Below are positions 24,469 through 43,497 of a DNA stretch of 64,000 nucleotides, piece by piece. The notes under the pieces were generated by a model. That model saw only the letters and a program-made list of their open reading frames with translations. It searched no databases and was not told the origin of the DNA. Origin of the DNA: Ruminococcus sp. AF46-10NS (lineage in GTDB: Bacteria; Bacillota; Clostridia; Lachnospirales; Lachnospiraceae); NCBI RefSeq assembly GCF_003474435.1, contig NZ_QRNF01000019.1, positions 1 through 64,000 of the forward strand. Reading direction: 5' to 3'. Position 1 is the stretch's first letter; each line of letters starts with the position of its first letter. Both the position numbers and the translations under genes were made by a program.

Positions 24469-24497
24469 TTGACATTTAACATGGTAAATAATATAAT
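24469..24497 (+). promoter_or_regulatory. Promoter of the first cobalamin-riboswitch unit
   Basis: Consensus TTGACA (24469-24474), 17 bp, TATAAT (24492-24497). Confidence 0.85.
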
Positions 24498-24518
24498 ATA
24501 CAAAATATATTACAGAAA

Positions 24519-24677
24519 CAATGCATGTTCCACAGATGTGGATGAAAAGGGAAACCGGTGTGAATCCGGTACGGTCCCGCCACTGTAAAAGGGAGCTATT
24601 ATCATATATGTCACTGCCGAAATGGCGGGAAGACGATAAAATGCGATGAACTTAAGTCAGGATACCTGCTTGCATTG
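24519..24677 (+). ncRNA. Cobalamin riboswitch 1
   Basis: The conserved core is present: GGTGTGAATCCGGTACGG, then CCCGCCACTGTAA, and the B12 box AAGTCAGGATACCTGC near the 3' end. CAATGCAT at the start and TGCATTG at the end close the P1 stem. A TTTCTTA/TAAGAAA stem followed by GGCTTTATTTTTAT at about 24688-24720 may be the expression platform. It controls the orphan binding-protein gene at 24821. Confidence 0.93.
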
Positions 24678-24820
24678 AAAAAGGTTATTTCTTACGGTGT
24701 ATAAGAAAGGCTTTATTTTTATACCTAAAATGCATCTTAAGAAAGATCTTTTTTATTTCGGGAAAGGATGTGAGAAAAAAGTTCGGGTTTTACACAAATA
24801 CGATAGAAAGGTTAAAAGGA

Positions 24821-26032
24821 ATGAAAAAGATAATAAGTTGTATATTAACGGTACTCATGTTATTTATGTGCACCAGCAGTCCGGTCTGGGCAGAGGAAGT
24901 GCAGAGTGATGTAACAGGTGAGAATAAGAAAACTGTAATAGGAGTGTCCGTCTATGATCTGGATGATGCTGAAGTAAGAGCATTTAGGAATTATTTTGAA
25001 AATTATGCAGGTGTGTCTTTTGAAGTGGAATTTTTGTATTCTTCCAGTATAAATACTGCTGAAGAAGAAATTGATTTTATAAATGAGCTTCATAAAAGAA
25101 ATGTAAAGGGAATCATCTCGTTCCTTTCTTCGGATCTTGAAGAAGTTCTGCCTGTATGCAAAGAATATGGTATGTATTATGTACGTGGTTCAGGGACGAT
25201 CAGTGATGAAATGTATGAGAAAGTAAAAGACAATCCTTATTTTCTTGGAACAATAGGACCGTTAGTCGAAACAGAAATGGAAGCAGCTGCCAAGATGACA
25301 GAGTATTTTGCATCCGATGACCAGAATAAGCAAAATCATTACATAATAGCGTGCGGAGGAACTGGAACAGGTAATGAAATGCATCGTCTGAGAACCATTA
25401 GTATGCTGAACAGACTTCAGGAAATTTACGGGTTATCATACGATAAACCGGTAGAGCAGCTGGCAGATGCAAAGGATATTGAACAGATTGAAACTGGCAG
25501 TGATATAAAGATCACATTAGCGCCAGGCTATCCGTCAAGAGACAAACTTGATAAAAAACTGGCAGATCTGATAAACACTGGAGAATATAATGTTGTTCTA
25601 AGTGTACTGGGAGCGAATGGTTTTATTAATGTGATCGATGATTATGAAGAAGAGAATGATACGGATGTATTATTGGGGGTAATTGACTGTTTTACGGAAG
25701 ATACGTATGAGCTGTTTAATACAAGAGGGTACGCCGGAACGGAAAGGCTTAATTATCTTGTAGGAAAATATGGCGCGATCGTTGCACCGTCCTTCGTTTC
25801 TATGGAAAATGCCCTGGCAGGTTTTTCGGAAGATTATCGCGATGATGGAAATGCTTTCCAGTTAAATCAGTCATTCTGGGTTGCAGACTCTGAGGAGTCA
25901 TTCAACAAACAGTATGCATTATCTGTGGGAATGTATGATAATACATACAGTGTGGAAGATATGATGAAAGTTATGAAATCCTATACACCAGAAACCGATT
26001 TTGAGGAATTCCGAAATTTTACGGAAAAATAA
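24821..26032 (+). CDS. Secreted periplasmic-binding-like protein (type 1 fold), cobalamin-riboswitch controlled, orphan
   Basis: The 403-residue protein starts at ATG 24821 (AAAGG upstream); an in-frame upstream start at 24770 adds a basic stretch before the signal peptide and is less likely. The signal peptide ends VWA-EE, a signal peptidase I site, not a lipobox. The mature part starts KKTVIGVSVYDLDD and has the alternating alpha/beta form of type 1 periplasmic sugar-binding-like proteins (GIISFL, YYVRGSGTI, IIACGGTGTGNEM, VVLSVLGANGF). It stands alone behind a B12 riboswitch with no permease attached. It may bind a corrinoid, a cobalt complex or a corrinoid precursor; this is inference. 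Confidence 0.7.
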   Translation: MKKIISCILTVLMLFMCTSSPVWAEEVQSDVTGENKKTVIGVSVYDLDDAEVRAFRNYFENYAGVSFEVEFLYSSSINTAEEEIDFINELHKRNVKGIISFLSSDLEEVLPVCKEYGMYYVRGSGTISDEMYEKVKDNPYFLGTIGPLVETEMEAAAKMTEYFASDDQNKQNHYIIACGGTGTGNEMHRLRTISMLNRLQEIYGLSYDKPVEQLADAKDIEQIETGSDIKITLAPGYPSRDKLDKKLADLINTGEYNVVLSVLGANGFINVIDDYEEENDTDVLLGVIDCFTEDTYELFNTRGYAGTERLNYLVGKYGAIVAPSFVSMENALAGFSEDYRDDGNAFQLNQSFWVADSEESFNKQYALSVGMYDNTYSVEDMMKVMKSYTPETDFEEFRNFTEK

Positions 26033-26051
26033 AAATATATTGCTAAAGCAA

Positions 26052-26080
26052 TTGACATATTTGTAACAACATGTTATTAT
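26052..26080 (+). promoter_or_regulatory. Promoter of the second cobalamin-riboswitch unit
   Basis: TTGACA (26052-26057), 17 bp, TATTAT (26075-26080). It lies just after the stop of the orphan binding-protein gene. Confidence 0.85.
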
Positions 26081-26112
26081 TTTTGCGAATCATACAGCCA
26101 TTTCATAATTTT

Positions 26113-26289
26113 AGAGATAAGTTCAAACCAGCAGGTAAACTGCTGGTTTGCTTAAAAGGGAAATCGGTGTGAATCCGGTACGATCCCGTCACTGTGATAG
26201 TTGGTTTTCAGCTCAATGCCACTGAAGGATATTCTTTTGGGAAGGCGCTGAAAATGTGTGAGCTTAAGTCAGGAGACCTGCTTATTTCT
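26113..26289 (+). ncRNA. Cobalamin riboswitch 2
   Basis: The core GGTGTGAATCCGGTACGA, CCCGTCACTGTGA and B12 box AAGTCAGGAGACCTGC are all present. AGATAAG and CTTATTTCT at the ends close P1. An extra hairpin (AACCAGCAG/CTGCTGGTT) lies inside the 5' part. Confidence 0.93.
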
Positions 26290-26381
26290 ACGAGAGATTC
26301 TTGCGGACGACGAGAAATCCTGATTAAGAGTTACAACTTCAAGTGTTACTTTGGATAAATTCTTTAATGATAAGATTTCGT

Positions 26382-26411
26382 GACGGATGCAGAGCATCTG
26401 TCTTTTTTTGG
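26382..26411 (+). terminator. Expression-platform terminator of riboswitch 2
   Basis: GACGGATGC and GCATCTGTC form a stem followed by seven T. It lies between the aptamer and the transporter genes, as expected for B12-induced termination. Confidence 0.8.
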
Positions 26412-26467
26412 GAGAAAATTATGGAAACAAGTTGTGTATGAGATAAAGAGAAGAAAGGAAAAAGAAA

Positions 26468-28024
26468 ATGAAAAAAAGAAAATTAATTGTGTTGGCAGCG
26501 GCGACAGCAGCAATGTTATCAATGGGTGTTTCCGTACAGGCAAAAGGCGATGAAAAGACTTTAAATTTCGGATGTCAGATGTACACGGACGGATGTGTAA
26601 ATAGCGCAAATGATGAGAATAGCGGATGGAATGCCATGAGATATGGTATTGCAGAAGCATTATTCAAATTTGATGATAACATGGAGGTTGTACCGTGGCT
26701 TGCTGAGAGTTATGAAGTAAATGATGAACATACAGAATGGACGATCAAGCTGAAAGATGGTATTAAATTCTCTGACGGATGCGATCTGACTCCGACAAAG
26801 GTAAAAGAATATTTTGATCATATGAAAGAGGTAGGACCATCCGGATCTGCAAAACCTGAAAAATATCTGGAATTTGAAGCAGAAGTTACTGTGGATGATG
26901 ATGCAAATACTGTCACTATCAAAACAAGTAAACCATATGCCAACCTTGTAGGACAGCTTTGTCATCCAACTATGGGAATCACAGATGTAGAGCATATTGA
27001 AAACTATGACAATGGAATCATTGGAACAGGCCCATATAAAATTGATGAGTTTAATGGTGTGGGTGTTGGTTATACATTATCTGCAAATGAATATTATCGT
27101 GAAGATGTTCCATATGATAAAGTTAATCTGATGTTTATGGGCGATAACTCTGCAAAAACAATGGCACTTCAGAGTGGACAGGTAGACCTGGTTGAGAATA
27201 TTACAAATGTTGCAGACATTAAGAATTTCCAGGACAGCGATGATTATACAGTTGATATCGCATCCGGTGTACGTTGTGGATTTGCATGGATGAATTTTGA
27301 TGGTGTTCTCGGAAACAAAACACTTCGTCAGGCGATTCTGATGGCAATCGACAATGATACGATCTGCAACTCCAAAACAATCGGTGGACTTTATACACCA
27401 GGATTTTCCGTACTGCCATCTACTCTGAATTACGATTATGATAAACTGGAAAATCCATATACCTATGATCCGGAAAAAGCAAAGCAGATTCTGGATGATG
27501 CAGGAATTGTTGATACTGACGGAGATGGAATCCGTGAACTCGATGGTCAGAATATCAATCTCAGATACATCTCTTATGAGAATCGTCTTCTGAATGATTT
27601 TGCAGATGCACATGCGCAGTATCTTGCAGAAATTGGTATTGGTGTTACTCCGGAATATGGAAGCTCTGATGATCAGTGGAGTAAACTTGCAGCACTGGAT
27701 TATGATTTTAATAATAATAACTGGATTACCGTTGGTACGGGAGATCCTCTGGCATATATGGCTAACTGGGCAACGGATACCAGCTACTGTGCATATTCTA
27801 ATCCAGACTATGATAAGCTGTATGAAGAATTAAAAGGTGAGATGGACCCTGAAAAGAGAAAAGATCTGATCTTCCAGATGCAGCAGATTCTGGTAGATGA
27901 TGCAGCAGTTCTGATCGACGGATATTATAACTCATCCATGATCTACAATAAGAACGTTGGATCTGCTCATATCCATACAGCTGATTACTACTGGCTCTCA
28001 ACAGAAATTACTCCTGCTGAATAA
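26468..28024 (+). CDS. ABC transporter substrate-binding protein, family 5 (NikA/OppA-like)
   Basis: The 518-residue protein is a peptide/nickel-type SBP (family 5). After a signal peptide ending VQAKG it shows VPWLAESYEV, WTIKLKDGIKFSDG and GTGPYKIDEF, landmarks shared with E. coli NikA. There is no lipobox Cys, which is odd for a Gram-positive SBP. It is the first gene of an operon with two permeases, two ATPases and a MATE exporter, behind a B12 riboswitch. The substrate may be cobalt (as a chelate), nickel or a corrinoid-related compound; the regulation points to cobalt or corrinoid. Confidence 0.88.
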   Translation: MKKRKLIVLAAATAAMLSMGVSVQAKGDEKTLNFGCQMYTDGCVNSANDENSGWNAMRYGIAEALFKFDDNMEVVPWLAESYEVNDEHTEWTIKLKDGIKFSDGCDLTPTKVKEYFDHMKEVGPSGSAKPEKYLEFEAEVTVDDDANTVTIKTSKPYANLVGQLCHPTMGITDVEHIENYDNGIIGTGPYKIDEFNGVGVGYTLSANEYYREDVPYDKVNLMFMGDNSAKTMALQSGQVDLVENITNVADIKNFQDSDDYTVDIASGVRCGFAWMNFDGVLGNKTLRQAILMAIDNDTICNSKTIGGLYTPGFSVLPSTLNYDYDKLENPYTYDPEKAKQILDDAGIVDTDGDGIRELDGQNINLRYISYENRLLNDFADAHAQYLAEIGIGVTPEYGSSDDQWSKLAALDYDFNNNNWITVGTGDPLAYMANWATDTSYCAYSNPDYDKLYEELKGEMDPEKRKDLIFQMQQILVDDAAVLIDGYYNSSMIYNKNVGSAHIHTADYYWLSTEITPAE

Positions 28025-28053
28025 GAAAACGAAAATAAGAAGAGGTGTCTTTT

Positions 28054-28992
28054 TTGAGTAAAAAGCAAATAATTAAGCGACTTTTACAGATTGTAATCGT
28101 ACTGATCGGTATCAGCTTTATTACATTTGCACTGACTTTTATGTCTCCAGGTGATCCCGTGCGAAATATGTACACGGCAACTGGCGTAATGCCCACAGAA
28201 GAGATGGTTCAGGAAACAAGAGAAGAACTTGGTCTGAACGATCCGTTTCTGGTACAGTATACAAGATGGCTTAAAAACTGTCTGAAGGGTGATTTCGGCA
28301 AGTCATACAGTTTGAATAAACCGGTTACTGAACTTCTTGTAGCCAGATTATGGCCAACTCTGAAACTTACATTAATGTCCATGCTCCTTATGCTGGTCAT
28401 TTCGGTACCTTTAGGTATGCTATCTGCCATATATAAGGATAAATGGATAGATTATCTCGTCCGGGGAATTACATTCCTCGGATGTGCTATGCCTAATTTC
28501 TGGGTTGGACTTTTACTAATGCTTGTATTCTGCGTTTATGTCAATGTATTTCCGGTTATCAGTTCTGCGGGAGACTTTAAGAGTCTGTTTCTTCCCGCAT
28601 TGACCCTGGCTATTGCCATGTCTTCCAAATATACAAGACAGGTTAGAACAGCAGTGCTGGATGAACTGAATCAGGACTATGTAATCGGCGCACAGGCAAG
28701 AGGAGTAAAAAGATCAAAGATTATCTGGGGTAATGTTTTTCCGAACTCATTATTGCCATTGATCACAATGTTCGGTCTCTCCATAGGCTCACTTCTTGGA
28801 GGAACCAGTGTTGTAGAGGTGATTTTTTCTTACCCAGGTCTTGGAAACCTTGCAGTTTCCGCGATTACATCCAGCGATTATAATCTGATCCAGGGATATG
28901 TATTGTGGCTTGCTCTGATTTATATGGTAATTAATCTGATCGTTGATGCATCTTATGTTTATATTGATCCACGTATGCGGTTAAAGGAGTAG
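28054..28992 (+). CDS. ABC transporter permease (NikB/OppB-like)
   Basis: This permease has six hydrophobic segments, an N-terminal one followed by a large extracytoplasmic loop, and the conserved EAA-type loop AQARGVKRSKIIWGNVFPN. TTG 28054 is the best start: the ribosome site GAAGAGG (28039-28045) overlaps the alternative GTG at 28045. About 312 residues. It forms the membrane channel together with the next gene. Confidence 0.88.
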   Translation: MSKKQIIKRLLQIVIVLIGISFITFALTFMSPGDPVRNMYTATGVMPTEEMVQETREELGLNDPFLVQYTRWLKNCLKGDFGKSYSLNKPVTELLVARLWPTLKLTLMSMLLMLVISVPLGMLSAIYKDKWIDYLVRGITFLGCAMPNFWVGLLLMLVFCVYVNVFPVISSAGDFKSLFLPALTLAIAMSSKYTRQVRTAVLDELNQDYVIGAQARGVKRSKIIWGNVFPNSLLPLITMFGLSIGSLLGGTSVVEVIFSYPGLGNLAVSAITSSDYNLIQGYVLWLALIYMVINLIVDASYVYIDPRMRLKE

Positions 28993-28996
28993 AATC

Positions 28997-29824
28997 GTGA
29001 AAAAGAAAAACAGATTTTTAGCAAATAAAACTTTTGTCGTGTTTTCTATTCTGGCAGTCTGTATTATTCTTGCAGCTGTGTTTGCACCGGTGGTTACCAG
29101 AGGTGTTGATCCGTTAAAAGGTTCTCTGGTAGATGCATTGCTGCCACCATGTAAAGAACATATTTTTGGAACAGACAAAATGGGACGGGATATTTTTTCA
29201 AGAGTTATTTATGGAGCACGTGCTTCGTTGTCCGCAACCTTTGGTGTTGTTGCCCTGATCTTTCTGGTGGGTACTGTTACCGGAGTTCTTGCAGGATATT
29301 TCGGAGGGGTGATCGATGCTGTTATTATGCGAATTGCAGATATGATGCTTGCTTTCCCCGGATTAGTACTGGCACTTGCCGTTGCAGGTATCATGGGTGC
29401 AAGTATCAAAAATGCGATTATTGCTATTGTTGTAGTAAGCTGGACGAAATATGCACGTTTGGCACGAAGTCTGGTTATGAAGATCCGTGACAGGGATTAT
29501 GTATCAGCAGCGATCGTTACTGGCTCAAAAACACCATATATGTTGTTTCGATATATGCTTCCGAATGCACTTCCAACACTGATCATTACTGCAGCAACAG
29601 ATATTGGTTCCATGATGCTGGAATTAGCAGCAATGTCCTTCCTGGGCTTTGGCGCAAAGCCCCCGGCACCAGAATGGGGATATATGCTGAATGAAGGAAG
29701 AGCGTGTATGCAGTCAGCTCCGTGGCTGATGATCTTTCCTGGTCTTGCTATTTTTGTTGTAGTTGTTGTATTCAATATGCTTGGGGATTCTATTCGTGAT
29801 ATCCTTGATCCAAGAAATGAGTAG
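28997..29824 (+). CDS. ABC transporter permease (NikC/OppC-like)
   Basis: The 275-residue permease has the OppC N-terminal segment, the DKMGRDIFSRVIYGARASL signature of NikC/DppC proteins, and the EAA loop region VTGSKTPYMLFRYMLPN. GTG 28997 follows AAAGGAG. It is 4 bp past the previous stop codon. Confidence 0.9.
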   Translation: MKKKNRFLANKTFVVFSILAVCIILAAVFAPVVTRGVDPLKGSLVDALLPPCKEHIFGTDKMGRDIFSRVIYGARASLSATFGVVALIFLVGTVTGVLAGYFGGVIDAVIMRIADMMLAFPGLVLALAVAGIMGASIKNAIIAIVVVSWTKYARLARSLVMKIRDRDYVSAAIVTGSKTPYMLFRYMLPNALPTLIITAATDIGSMMLELAAMSFLGFGAKPPAPEWGYMLNEGRACMQSAPWLMIFPGLAIFVVVVVFNMLGDSIRDILDPRNE

Positions 29825-29835
29825 GAGGAATAAAC

Positions 29836-30618
29836 ATGCTGAAATTGAATAATGTGACAATCTCCTACAAAGATGTCCCAACTGTCCAGAATTTTAATCT
29901 GGATATGAAAGAGGGACAGGTCATCTCCCTGGTAGGAGAATCAGGAAGTGGAAAAACTACGGTTATTCGCGCGATTCTGGGACTTCTTGCAGGTGGTGGT
30001 AAAGTTACCGAAGGAAGTATCTTATTTGAGGGAGAAGACCTTTTATCTTACACACCGGAGCAATGGAGAAAGCTTAGAGGTTCCGATATTTCCATGATTT
30101 TTCAGGATAGTGGTGCGATGATGAATCCGACAAAAAAAATCGGAAGTGTTTTTACTGAATATATACTTACCCATGAAAAAATCTCCAAAAAAGAAGCATG
30201 GAATAAGGGAATCGCAATGCTGGAAAAAATGAGGCTCCCTTCCGCAGATAATATTATGGAATCTTATCCTTTTCAGTTATCTGGCGGTATGAGACAAAGA
30301 GTTGGTATTGCTATGGGAATGACTTATCAGCCGAAACTTCTTCTGGCAGATGAACCAACTTCTGCACTGGATGTGACAACGCAGGCTCAGATTGTTCGAC
30401 AGATGATGCAGCTTAGAGATGATTATCATACGAGTATTATTGTGGTGACACATAATCTGGGAGTGGCGGCCTATATGTCAGATTATATTATTGTAATGAA
30501 AAACGGAAAAATGGAAGATCAGGGCTCAAGAGAGTATATTCTGAAGGAATCAAACAATGAATATACCAGAAAACTTCTGGAAGCGGTTCCGTCTCTGGGA
30601 GGTGAACGATATGTCTGA
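29836..30618 (+). CDS. ABC transporter ATP-binding protein (NikD/OppD-like)
   Basis: The 260-residue ATPase has Walker A GESGSGKT, signature LSGGMRQRV, Walker B LLLADEPTSALD and the H-loop VVTHN. The C-terminal OppD extension with Cys/Pro is absent, as in short NikD forms. It overlaps the next gene by 8 bp. Confidence 0.92.
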   Translation: MLKLNNVTISYKDVPTVQNFNLDMKEGQVISLVGESGSGKTTVIRAILGLLAGGGKVTEGSILFEGEDLLSYTPEQWRKLRGSDISMIFQDSGAMMNPTKKIGSVFTEYILTHEKISKKEAWNKGIAMLEKMRLPSADNIMESYPFQLSGGMRQRVGIAMGMTYQPKLLLADEPTSALDVTTQAQIVRQMMQLRDDYHTSIIVVTHNLGVAAYMSDYIIVMKNGKMEDQGSREYILKESNNEYTRKLLEAVPSLGGERYV

Positions 30619-31585
30619 AAACAGAGAAGTGATACTGGAAGCAAAACATGTGACCAGAAGATTTGCAGCATCACATGGGCGAACACTTCTGGCAAACAAC
30701 GATATCAGCTTAAAAATGTACAAGGGTGAGACATTGGGACTGGTAGGCGAATCCGGATGTGGAAAGAGTACATTTATGAGATTTCTGGTTTCTCTTGATA
30801 CTCCTTCAGAGGGAGAAATCCTGTATCGTGGCACTGACATCACGAAATTAAAAGGTGAAGAACTGAGAAAAAATCGCCAGAACATTCAGATGGTATTTCA
30901 GGATCCGACCTTATCTTTTAATCCAAAAATGAAAATTCGCGATATTGTATGCGAACCTTTGATGAACTTTAAAAAGATCAGGAAGTCCGAGAAAGATTCC
31001 GTCTGCAGAAAGCTTCTTGAGATGGTAGAATTACCCGGCGATTTTGCAGACCGTTATCCTCATAATATGAGTGGTGGACAGCGCCAGAGAGTTGCTATTG
31101 CAAGAGCACTTGCATTGGAACCTGAAATCGTTGTTCTTGATGAAGCAACTTCTGCTCTGGATGTTTCTGTTCAGAAAACAGTAATAGAATTGATCATAAA
31201 ACTTCAGAAAGAGAAGAATATTACGTTTGGTTTTATCTGTCATGATATAGCACTGGTTCAGCTGGTGGCACATCAGGTAGCGGTTATGTATCTTGGGAAT
31301 CTGGTGGAAGTTCTTCCGGGAAAAGAACTTGGAACAAAAGCCATGCATCCATATACAAAAGCGTTGATGGGAGCCGTATTTGACATTAATATGGATTTTT
31401 CAAAACCAATCGAAAGTATTGAAAGCGAGGCTCCAAGCCCGCTGGATCTTCCAAAGGGGTGTCCGTTCCAGGGAAGATGTGATCATTGTATGGATATCTG
31501 CAAAATAAAGAACCCGAAGCTTACAGAAGTCGAAAATGGACACAGCGTTGCCTGCCATTTGTTTCAAAAGGGTAGTGAAAAATGA
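30611..31585 (+). CDS. ABC transporter ATP-binding protein (NikE/OppF-like)
   Basis: The 324-residue ATPase has Walker A GESGCGKS, signature MSGGQRQRV, Walker B IVVLDEATSALD, and the OppF C-terminal domain with a Cys-rich end (GCPFQGRCDHCMDIC). ATG 30611 is chosen because of GGGAGGTGAACGAT just before it and because homology starts at SENREVILEA; an upstream ATG at 30557 lies inside the previous gene. The last four bases overlap the MATE start. Confidence 0.92.
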   Translation: MSENREVILEAKHVTRRFAASHGRTLLANNDISLKMYKGETLGLVGESGCGKSTFMRFLVSLDTPSEGEILYRGTDITKLKGEELRKNRQNIQMVFQDPTLSFNPKMKIRDIVCEPLMNFKKIRKSEKDSVCRKLLEMVELPGDFADRYPHNMSGGQRQRVAIARALALEPEIVVLDEATSALDVSVQKTVIELIIKLQKEKNITFGFICHDIALVQLVAHQVAVMYLGNLVEVLPGKELGTKAMHPYTKALMGAVFDINMDFSKPIESIESEAPSPLDLPKGCPFQGRCDHCMDICKIKNPKLTEVENGHSVACHLFQKGSEK

Positions 31586-32949
31586 AAAAAAACAGCTTGA
31601 CCTCTGGAAATATAGGGAAAGCATTATTGCTTTTTGTGCTTCCGCTGATTGCCGGAAGCCTGATCCAGCAGTTGTATACAACCGTTGATGCGATTATTGT
31701 TGGACAGTTTACAGGAAAAGTTGGACTTGCATCCATTGATTCTGTACATACACTTTTCAAGTTTCCGATTAACTTTATGAATGGATTGGCAACCGGTGCA
31801 ACTATTATGATTTCCGGATATTTCGGAGCAAAAGACAAAAAAGGGTTACATTGTGCAGTGCGTACAGCACTTTTGCTTGCCGGTATTCTTGGAATTATCT
31901 GTGCAGTAGTGGGTATTATTTTTTCCCCATGGCTTCTCAAAATCATGTCTGTTCCGAAAGAAATTCATGCAGAGGCATTGATCTACTGCCGTATTTATAT
32001 GGGCGGTATTTGGGCGATGATCCTCTATAATATGATGGCCGGTGTTCTGCGTGCATTCGGGGATTCCAAAAATCCTTTATATGTTTTGCTTGTATGCAGT
32101 GTGGTCAATATCGTCGCAGATCTTATATTGGTAGGAGTTTTTCATGCCGGCGTTGGAGGAGCTGCTGCGGCCACGGTACTTTCACAAATTGTGAGCGTGG
32201 TATTTACCGCATATCTCCTTATGAAATCTGATTTTCTGGAAGAAAATATAGGCATCAGGACTATGGGAATATGTAAAGAGCATATGGGAATGATGATAAA
32301 AAAAGGTTTTCCATTAGCTCTTCAATCAATGCTGTTCCCAATCGCCAATTCTATTGTTCAGGCAAGTGTTAATACGATGGGAACTGACAGTATTGCGGCA
32401 TGGGGAATCTGTGATAAACTTGATCTGCTGATCTGGCTAGTCGCGGATTCCATGGGACCGGTACTGACTACATATACCGCACAGAATCTTGGTGCCGGTA
32501 AGTCGGAGAGAGTAAAGAAAGGTGTTTTCGTTGGTACTGGTCTATCTGTGGTCGCAGTAGGAATTATCAGTATTGTCCTTTATTTTGGCGCTGGTCTGAT
32601 CGGACCGCTTTTTATCGATCAGAAAGATGTTCCGACATTGATACCTCTTGTTATAAAATACATGCAGATGATGGCACCATTTTTTGCGTTTTATGCTGTT
32701 GTAGAAGCACTTTCGGGAGCCTGCTGCGGTCTTGGTGAAACACTGGTACCAATGATAACTACCATGATTACGATCTGCTTGTTTCGAGTAGCTGGTATTT
32801 GGTTTGTTTTGCCAAGGTTTGATACAATGGAATGCATTGTATGGATTTATATTGCATCATGGATTGTGTCAGGTGTTGCTTTTATTATTTTGTATCTGAT
32901 AAAGGTTCATAAAATCCATCAGAAAAAGGAAACAACTCTGGCATCGTGA
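31582..32949 (+). CDS. MATE family efflux transporter
   Basis: The 455-residue protein has twelve hydrophobic segments in two halves. The start is NIGKALLLFVLPLIAGSLIQQLY and the centre carries GVGGAAAATVLSQ, features of the NorM/DinF-like MATE family (Na+- or H+-driven export). It overlaps the NikE-like stop by 4 bp, so it is translated with the ABC transporter and lies in the same B12-riboswitch operon. The substrate is unknown; export linked to the imported compound is possible. Confidence 0.88.
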   Translation: MKKNSLTSGNIGKALLLFVLPLIAGSLIQQLYTTVDAIIVGQFTGKVGLASIDSVHTLFKFPINFMNGLATGATIMISGYFGAKDKKGLHCAVRTALLLAGILGIICAVVGIIFSPWLLKIMSVPKEIHAEALIYCRIYMGGIWAMILYNMMAGVLRAFGDSKNPLYVLLVCSVVNIVADLILVGVFHAGVGGAAAATVLSQIVSVVFTAYLLMKSDFLEENIGIRTMGICKEHMGMMIKKGFPLALQSMLFPIANSIVQASVNTMGTDSIAAWGICDKLDLLIWLVADSMGPVLTTYTAQNLGAGKSERVKKGVFVGTGLSVVAVGIISIVLYFGAGLIGPLFIDQKDVPTLIPLVIKYMQMMAPFFAFYAVVEALSGACCGLGETLVPMITTMITICLFRVAGIWFVLPRFDTMECIVWIYIASWIVSGVAFIILYLIKVHKIHQKKETTLAS

Positions 32950-33156: not shown

Positions 33157-34687
33157 ATGACAACAGCACATATTTGTATAATGGCAGCCATTATCGTCTA
33201 CCTGGGTGCAATGATCTTTGTGGGTTATCTGTGCTCCAAGAACAACAATGACAGTTCTGACTTTTACCTGGGAGGAAGAAAGCTTGGCCCTCTGGTAACA
33301 GCCATGAGTGCAGAGGCTTCTGACATGAGCAGCTGGCTTCTGATGGGATTGCCTGGACTTGCTTATCTTACCGGTATTGCAGACGCAGGCTGGACAGCCA
33401 TTGGCCTTGCAATTGGAACTTATGTAAACTGGAGGATTGTGGCAAAAAGAATCCGCCGCTACACACATGTGGCCGGAAACTCCATTACACTGCCATCCTT
33501 TTCAGTAACCGTTACAGAGATGAGAAGAAGATCCTGCAGTCCATCGGAGCGATTTTTATCGTAATCTTTTTTATTCCGTATACAGCTTCCGGATTTGCAG
33601 CCTGTGGTAAGCTTTTTGCCAGTCTCTTTGGCGTAAAATATCTGCCGGCCATGATCATCAGTGCACTGGTTATTGTTGGATATACCACACTGGAGGATTC
33701 CTGGCAGCATCTACTACAGATTTTATTCAGAGTATCATCATGTCCATCGCACTTGTGATTGTATTCGTATTCGGGATCAGCACTGCCGGTGGTATTGAGG
33801 CAGTTGCAGACCATGCAAGATCCCTGCCGGGATATCTGACTATGTTTACTACATATGATCCCACAACCGGAACAGAACAGGCATATCCACTGCTTAACAT
33901 TATTTCCATGCTTGCATGGGGACTTGGATATTTCGGAATGCCACATATTCTTCTTCGTTTCATGGCGATTGAAGACGAAGAGAAACTTACGCTTTCCAGA
34001 AGAGTGGCAACTACATGGGTAGTGATCTCACTGGCAGTAGCAGTACTGATCGGTGTGGTAGGACTTGGAATGACAGCAGCAGGAGAGTTTGACCTTCTGG
34101 AGGGCTCCGCATCTGAGACAATTATCGTTCAGATCGCAGATCTTCTCAGTAAACATGGTGTAATTGCAGCAATCCTTGCAGGACTCATCCTTGCAGGAAT
34201 CCTGGCATCCACCATGTCAACCGCAGATTCTCAGCTCCTGGCAGCATCCTCAGCCGTTTCTTCCGACCTTCTCGGAAGCATCCTGAAGGATAAAGAAACA
34301 AAAAAAGAAAGCATGGTAGCCGATAAGATTACGCTTCTTCTCATCGCAGTAGTAGCCATGTTTATTGCCCGCGACCCGAACAGTTCCGTGTTTACTATCG
34401 TATCCTTTGCCTGGGCAGGCTTCGGAGCTGTATTCGGCCCTGTAGTCCTCCTGGCATTATTCTGGAGACGCTCCAACTGGCAGGGAGCCCTGGCAGGAAT
34501 GATCTGCGGTGGCTCCATGGTATTCATCTGGAAGTACGGAATCAGCAAACTGGGGGGTGCCTGGGGAATCTATGAACTTCTTCCGGCTTTTATAGTAGCC
34601 ATTGCTGCAAACATCATAGTAAGTCTGCTTACCAAAGCCCCATCCAAAGAGATCACTGATGAATTTGACAAGGTAAACCAGAAATAA
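33157..34687 (+). CDS. Sodium:solute symporter (PutP-like), frame broken twice
   Basis: The restored protein has about 510 residues and belongs to the SSS family; the best match is a sodium/proline symporter. FYLGGRKLGPLVTAMSAEASDMSSW is the PutP signature (quoted in part). One T is missing in the T-run 33499-33502, and one G at 33692/33693 (TTL-G-GFLAAS). Both breaks are healed by one base. It lies between the MATE terminator and a convergent folate operon, with which it shares a bidirectional terminator. Confidence 0.88.
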
Positions 34688-37590: not shown

Positions 37591-37730
37591 AAAAAGCCCT
37601 ACACAATATGAGATAATCTCTTATATTGCTGCAACGGGTGCGAACTTCATACCGTAAGACGTACTTTTCGTTCTGGCGACAACTCCCCATTCGCCAAACA
37701 CTTGACGCATAAAGCCCTATTTTGCATATC
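37591..37730 (-). ncRNA. Tetrahydrofolate (THF) riboswitch with terminator, upstream of folE
   Basis: On the minus strand the leader carries GCGTCAAGTG, a GGCGAATGGGG..GTCGCC arm, AACGAA and CCGTTGCAGC in order, matching the pattern of the folT/folE THF riboswitch I know from Clostridiales. It ends in the stem AATATAAGAGA/TCTCATATT followed by GGGCTTTTTT, a likely expression-platform terminator (37591-37628). A -10 TATACT lies on the minus strand at 37747-37752, with a weak -35. The fit is by eye, not by a covariance model. Confidence 0.7.
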
Positions 37731-43159: not shown

Positions 43160-43497
43160 AGTATAGTAAAAGGCGAGGAAGGGAAGAAGTAACCTAGGGA
43201 AAACCCCACAGAGAGCAGCCGGCAGGTGAGAGGCGCAGGGTGGAACTTTCGTGAATACATCCCGGAGCTGCGCACCGAATCAGGATTTAATACTGTGAAA
43301 TATAGATTTTACAGATAGGCTGCGACGGATAGCACCCGTTATTGTGCTGAAGTGATTTTATATCTTGTTATATATTGACATAAAGGATATAAATTCACTT
43401 TATGAGGCAGGAAATGCGAGTTTTCTGTAAATTTAGGTGGTAACGCGGGACCCGGTTCTCGTCCTAAACGGACAGGAACCGGGCATTTTTATTTTTT
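43160..43497 (+). ncRNA. T-box leader (tyrosine) with terminator
   Basis: The leader carries AGAGAGCAGCCGGC.., a specifier loop GTGAATAC (TAC, tyrosine, at 43256-43258) and the T-box GGTGGTAACGCGGGAC (43436-43451). The terminator stem CCCGGTTC..GAACCGGG ends in CATTTTTATTTTT. It senses uncharged tRNA-Tyr and allows tyrS expression. Confidence 0.93.

Follow-up and report, generated by a model that had tools for sequence, protein, structure and literature searches.

A candidate B12-repressed cobalt importer of the Nik/Opp class in Ruminococcus sp. AF46-10NS and related Lachnospiraceae

We have analysed a stretch of 64,000 nucleotides from Ruminococcus sp. AF46-10NS (contig NZ_QRNF01000019.1, positions 1 to 64,000), which we will call the window. 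It has two adjacent cobalamin riboswitches: the first one precedes the gene of a secreted binding protein, called P here, and the second one precedes an operon with the genes of an ATP-binding cassette (ABC) importer, oppABCDF, and of a MATE-family transporter. On balance we favour the view that this locus codes for a metal importer of the Nik/Opp class that is repressed by B12 and takes up cobalt for de novo cobalamin synthesis, with the binding protein OppA helped by P. The strongest single case for cobalt is found in another genome, G011 (locus L146; genomes and loci have G and L numbers), where a riboswitch and oppABCDF are followed by cbiD, a TP_methylase gene, cbiG, a second TP_methylase gene, a cbiJ fusion, a CbiA/CobB-like gene and cbiB, all in the same direction. 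This genome has no match to CbiM or to P.

The best-supported substrate is cobalt, free or chelated. We favour it over a corrinoid because of the operon just described, and also because the 30 genomes in which we have found P all have CbiD, with a strong CbiM match in two of them and NicO in none; besides, OppA is nearest to NikA. When adenosylcobalamin is low both riboswitches would permit the expression of P and of oppABCDF-MATE. OppA, aided by P, would then capture extracellular cobalt, probably complexed with a small organic chelator, and OppBCDF would import it for de novo cobalamin synthesis, replacing CbiMNQO.

The locus in the window

The features of the locus, all of them on the + strand, are the following:

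24469..24497, +, sigma-70-type promoter-like site TTGACA-17-TATAAT, 12/12 consensus matches
24508..24687, +, cobalamin riboswitch aptamer 1 (RF00174, 121.5 bits, E 5.9e-30, model positions 1-189)
24770..26032, +, P, secreted type-1-fold (RbsB/GGBP-like) binding protein, from fold matches
26052..26080, +, sigma-70-type promoter-like site TTGACA-17-TATTAT, 11/12 consensus matches
26102..26299, +, cobalamin riboswitch aptamer 2 (RF00174, 107 bits, E 8.5e-26, model positions 1-189)
26382..26402, +, terminator-like hairpin (9 pairs, then a T run) between aptamer 2 and oppA
26468..28024, +, oppA, SBP_bac_5 binding protein nearest to NikA, from profile matches, with a signal region in its translation
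28045..28992, +, oppB, permease (NCBIfam Opp2B 'nickel ABC transporter permease', 388.8 bits, cut-off 350)
28997..29824, +, oppC, permease (NCBIfam Opp2C 'nickel transporter permease', 325.8 bits, cut-off 300)
29836..30618, +, oppD, ABC ATPase, from Pfam/NCBIfam matches
30611..31585, +, oppF, ABC ATPase with an oligo_HPY C-terminus, from Pfam/NCBIfam matches
31582..32949, +, MATE-family transporter, final gene of the operon (TIGR00797, 214.8 bits, cut-off 147.4)

The whole window was scanned with Rfam cmscan. Both aptamers are full length, with scores far over the gathering score of RF00174 (31.5), and each has a near-consensus promoter-like site about 10–20 bases before its start. The riboswitch/P/opp stretch has four promoter-like sites, a count which is not above that of shuffled sequences (mean 7.8): the case for the two sites is their quality and placement, not their number. 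The hairpin at 26382–26402, which also appears in the predicted fold, is likely the expression platform of riboswitch 2, which probably works through transcription termination. Riboswitch 1 may act on translation, hiding the start codon of P, since the start region of P pairs with an upstream U-rich sequence in a predicted hairpin. Elsewhere in the window there are a tetrahydrofolate (THF) riboswitch (37630–37726, − strand) and a T-box leader (43167–43469, + strand).

ATG 24821 is the more likely start of the protein P, in agreement with its close relatives, and gives it 403 amino acids. It has the two-domain alpha/beta fold of RbsB and GGBP, which places it among the type-1 periplasmic binding proteins; in the rows listed it is only about 9–17% identical to them and, in contrast with these proteins, it has no Pfam match and adjoins an Opp-class transporter. 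No Pfam family was matched even at E <= 10, although HMMER filters drop most matches above about 0.1, and no NCBIfam model was matched either. DUF3798, considered as an identity for P, was rejected for lack of a Pfam match. No sequence relative was found in PDB, neither with the single protein nor with a profile. At E <= 0.001 a protein search found 171 relatives; among the 120 listed, those that have a name are called hypothetical proteins. Carriage of P by plasmids was also considered and dropped: there was one distant match, with 27% identity. A simple motif test on open frames without curated start codons found a lipobox-like signal in 5 of 32 P frames from the 33 loci described in the next section. 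A more distant relative of P is found in another Lachnospiraceae genome (L077:1438-2736, − strand) between two BPD_transp_2 permeases, possibly the ancestral setting of P.

The operon contains an SBP_bac_5 protein, two BPD_transp_1 permeases and two ABC ATPases, the composition of the peptide/nickel/opine class. We have not filed OppA as NikA because it is under the cut-offs of both NikA equivalog models (NF045468, 182.5 against 600; TIGR02294, 130 against 393). Its profile searched against PDB has nickel-binding or NikA names in 10 of the 11 best rows, several of which are near-identical NikA entries, while in the single-sequence search peptide and glutathione binders rank close after 3t66. 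The fold matches include CntA with staphylopine and cobalt. The alignment of OppA relatives has no invariant His. In the window the translated signal region of OppA has no lipobox; in the loci, by the same motif test, 2 of 31 OppA frames have a lipobox-like signal and four a twin-arginine-like one (L049:2424-4070, L051:6082-7806, L065:3391-5037 and L069:6157-7803), which suggests a possible export in folded form. In G003 (L147:11364-13787) OppC and OppA are fused in one open frame of 807 amino acids, tethering the binding protein to the permease.

The main features had been described in an earlier note on the same DNA: two B12 aptamers with their own promoters, a type 1-fold protein behind the first one, a six-gene operon of Nik/Opp type behind the second one and the absence of btu, cbi or known cobalt transporter families. 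The Infernal search proposed there, the fold and the family matches bear it out. In particular, the seven proteins have no match in Pfam (E <= 0.001) to CbiM/CbiQ, FecCD, Peripla_BP_2 or any other Cbi family.

Conservation and neighbours in related genomes

A genome scan for P gave 33 loci. They are spread over 30 genomes with the titles Blautia, Robinsoniella, Lachnospiraceae, Clostridiales or Eubacteriales bacterium, one being a Butyricicoccus. In all 33 loci P adjoins OppF or is otherwise in or next to the opp operon; most commonly it is the last gene of the arrangement riboswitch-oppBCADF-P. A second set has 17 loci with a strong P match (E below 1e-70) in 16 genomes, several of them shared with the first set; OppF or OppC is next to P in 16 of these loci, and the odd one out is G177. 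The earlier note had called P unattached, which is refuted by these relatives. Its suggestion of a link between the first protein and the second system, to be examined in other Lachnospiraceae, is supported by the same comparison; P may deliver a ligand to that system.

Riboswitches in these loci were searched with a covariance model (R1), made with 13 riboswitches from the window and its relatives, which replaced a regular-expression search that had missed many of them. With R1, 26 of the 33 loci have a B12 riboswitch before the operon, a count in which the 13 source riboswitches and their duplicates (L039, L040, L042, L064, L070, L071) match by construction. Two sequences begin inside the operon (L053, L068). 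That of L063 begins at the edge of the operon and shows only the last 19 positions of the model (17.3 bits, E 0.046). The other four loci (L043, L044, L054, L062) have upstream sequence in which R1 finds no riboswitch; in the genomes of L043 and L044 a second copy does have one (L047, L059).

Among the loci seen, the split layout riboswitch-P, riboswitch-oppABCDF-MATE is common only to the window, Blautia schinkii (L025) and Blautia sp. MSJ-9 (L030), while L041 has riboswitch-oppABCDF-MATE-P. The slot between hisIE and putP, occupied in the window by the P/oppABCDF/MATE version, contains in B. luti (L071) the arrangement AstE-riboswitch-oppBCADF-P, with proteins 34–65% identical to those of the window. 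The presence of two paralogous versions in one slot suggests that both do the same job; B. schinkii carries both of them (L025, L026). In G005 (L148) the slot is arranged as in B. luti; all that is left of P there is a two-piece remnant of about 105 codons (L148:8750-9066), with oppBCADF read as full length. In the window the putP-like symporter (33157–34687) is found in two open frames, 33157–33564 and 33740–34687; its relatives have a single one of 510 amino acids.

Other genes recur around the loci, although their counts are not independent, because the flanks are of unequal length and many of the loci belong to genomes that are related. P1B-type heavy-metal ATPases are found in the fetched flanks of 17 of the 33 loci, in several arrangements. 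Seven of these ATPases were scanned (L030, L035, L046, L061, L151, L152, L156) and all are over the cut-off of the cadmium family TIGR01512; that of L035 is also over the copper cut-off. Hydrolases of the AstE/AspA type are present in the flanks of nine loci. MATE genes are found in five of the 33 loci, in two of them more than 4 kb from P. The MATE gene lies inside the operon in the window, L025, L030 and L041; it comes after P in L153, L155, L156 and L157.

A different type of B12-riboswitch operon is present in L027:4049-10115 and L031:8532-14677. It codes for a CbiK-like chelatase with an N-terminal extension of about 130 amino acids, a Peripla_BP_2 protein, a permease of the FecCD class and an ABC ATPase; in L027 there is an additional NEAT match, under cut-off. 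From its sequence it appears to be a second unusual B12-switched uptake system. In B. schinkii (L028:2365-3150) a B12 riboswitch overlaps the listed start of a frame for a protein of 215 amino acids with the cysteine-rich 'zf-like' domain PF04071.

Cobalamin synthesis and alternative substrates

We used CbiD as a marker for anaerobic de novo B12 synthesis, and compared the genomes with P with a sample of 200 Lachnospiraceae genomes at least 90% complete. CbiD is present in all 30 of the former and in 120 of the latter (Fisher p 1.5e-6; this and the following p values ignore kinship). In many P genomes it is found within unusually long open frames of about 630–755 amino acids, possibly fusions (for example G263, G265-G267, G269-G280, G284 and G288). 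CbiM is present at E below 1e-50 in 2 of the 30 P genomes; three more have marginal matches (E 3.9e-5 to 5.1e-4), of which two slightly exceed the Pfam cut-off. In the family sample 46 of the 114 genomes with CbiD and no P have CbiM at E below 1e-20 (p 3.5e-4 for two P genomes; p 0.005 for four, once the two marginal matches are included). In these counts 24 of the 30 family genomes with a P match, those with the weaker matches (E above 1e-100), are taken as lacking P, and 11 of 74 genomes with weak CbiM matches as lacking CbiM. Neighbours in the 24 genomes were viewed in G066 only, where they are two BPD_transp_2 permeases.

CbiM was also compared in 37 genomes of the genus, where weak P matches (G005, G020, G037) and distant ones (G054, G057) were not counted as P. 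CbiM is present in 3 of the 11 genomes with P and in 16 of the 26 without it (p 0.079), or in 4 of 11 if the marginal CbiM of G028 is included (p 0.28). When genomes that have only the Opp operon (G003, G005, G011, G017) are added to those with P, the numbers become 4 of 15 and 15 of 22 (p 0.020). G017 is counted as Opp-only though its contig begins inside oppA and no riboswitch is visible; p is 0.007 when it is left out. Anti-occurrence of P and CbiM was rejected as a sole argument for cobalt, being too weak.

Several observations weigh against a cobalt importer helped by P. CbiM is also lacking in 68 of the 114 family genomes that have CbiD and no P, and it is present in 3 of the 6 genomes of the family sample with P (E below 1e-100). 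G011 and G003 have the riboswitch-Opp operon and no P. In G177 (L154:1091-2341, − strand) a strong P homologue, with 42% identity, lies between two LysR-type genes, and within the 12 kb fetched there is no OppC or OppF match and no riboswitch. This exception and the marginal CbiM matches have slightly lowered our confidence, and we still consider cobalt uptake the probable function.

The main alternative, which we regard as rather unlikely, is that OppA, P or both bind cobinamide, cobamides or precursors, which the Opp channel imports alongside BtuFCD. In B. schinkii B12 riboswitches also control operons of the FecCD class (L027, L029), and some SBP_bac_5 proteins are named heme-binding in PDB. 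These two FecCD-class systems, however, are already present in B. schinkii, cbiD is present in every P genome examined, metal ATPases recur at the locus, and in G011 the opp genes head cbiD-cbiG-cbiJ, where the input needed is cobalt.

A metallophore cycle is somewhat less probable still. The MATE protein would export a small cobalt chelator, OppA and P would recapture its complex with the metal, OppBCDF would import this complex and the AstE/AspA-type hydrolase would free the metal. The position of MATE in the operon or after P agrees with such a cycle, as do the AstE/AspA homologues and the CntA fold match. However, the MATE substrates are diverse, few loci have MATE, the window has no AstE homologue at E 1e-15 and there are no chelator synthesis genes among the seven proteins, although no genome-wide search was made. 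To a broader version, a dedicated cobaltophore pathway of gut Lachnospiraceae organized around B12 riboswitches, we give a similarly small chance. The NikA-like and the sugar-fold receptors, both mostly without lipid anchor, would share one Opp channel; MATE would secrete the chelator, AstE/AspA would release the metal inside and the P1B ATPase would vent its excess.

Least likely is an importer of peptides or amino acids that scarcity of B12 would switch on so as to spare enzymes that depend on it, such as MetH: the Opp class does transport peptides, B12 riboswitches can govern B12-sparing functions and peptide and glutathione binders follow 3t66 closely, but OppA is nearest to NikA by profile, metal ATPases are nearby and the G011 operon joins opp to cbi genes.

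Relation to known systems

To our knowledge it would be unusual for a nickel-class ABC channel to be paired with a sugar-fold receptor. The inferred role of the system, a B12-switched cobalt supply for de novo synthesis, is that of the energy-coupling factor (ECF) importer CbiMNQO, but the proteins are unrelated: the operon has no CbiM or CbiQ and codes for an ABC importer dependent on a binding protein. The corrinoid importer BtuFCD is likewise a B12-switched ABC importer; it has Peripla_BP_2 and FecCD, instead of the SBP_bac_5 and BPD_transp_1 found here. The system differs from the metallophore importers CntABCDF/SaNikA by its B12 riboswitch control and by the absence of staphylopine-type synthesis genes among the seven proteins.

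The closest precedent is found in a survey of 2009: the NikABCDE systems of Clostridium tetani and Desulfitobacterium hafniense are predicted behind B12 riboswitches and treated as exceptions to nickel specificity (PMC2667541). They are also importers of the peptide/nickel class, so that the regulatory logic is of a known kind. A second binding protein similar to P is not mentioned in the passages on these systems, whereas the loci described here have P as a conserved member and, repeatedly, MATE, AstE/AspA and P1B ATPases. The earlier note had proposed that cobalt or corrinoids may be taken up by another route: this route is supported and can be narrowed to cobalt, but its novelty was overstated, since Nik importers behind B12 riboswitches had already been predicted as cobalt systems in the text cited. 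In openly licensed literature, searched by title and abstract opening, we found nothing describing P or this operon in Lachnospiraceae. As far as our searches show, what is new is P as a conserved partner, an operon that joins opp and cbi genes, and metal ATPases and hydrolases as neighbours.

If our interpretation is true, it identifies the cobalt supply of a set of B12-making gut Lachnospiraceae which have no textbook importer. It would also give a role to a family of binding proteins without any Pfam or NCBIfam model match. It then becomes testable which metal or corrinoid is limiting for the production of B12 by these bacteria.

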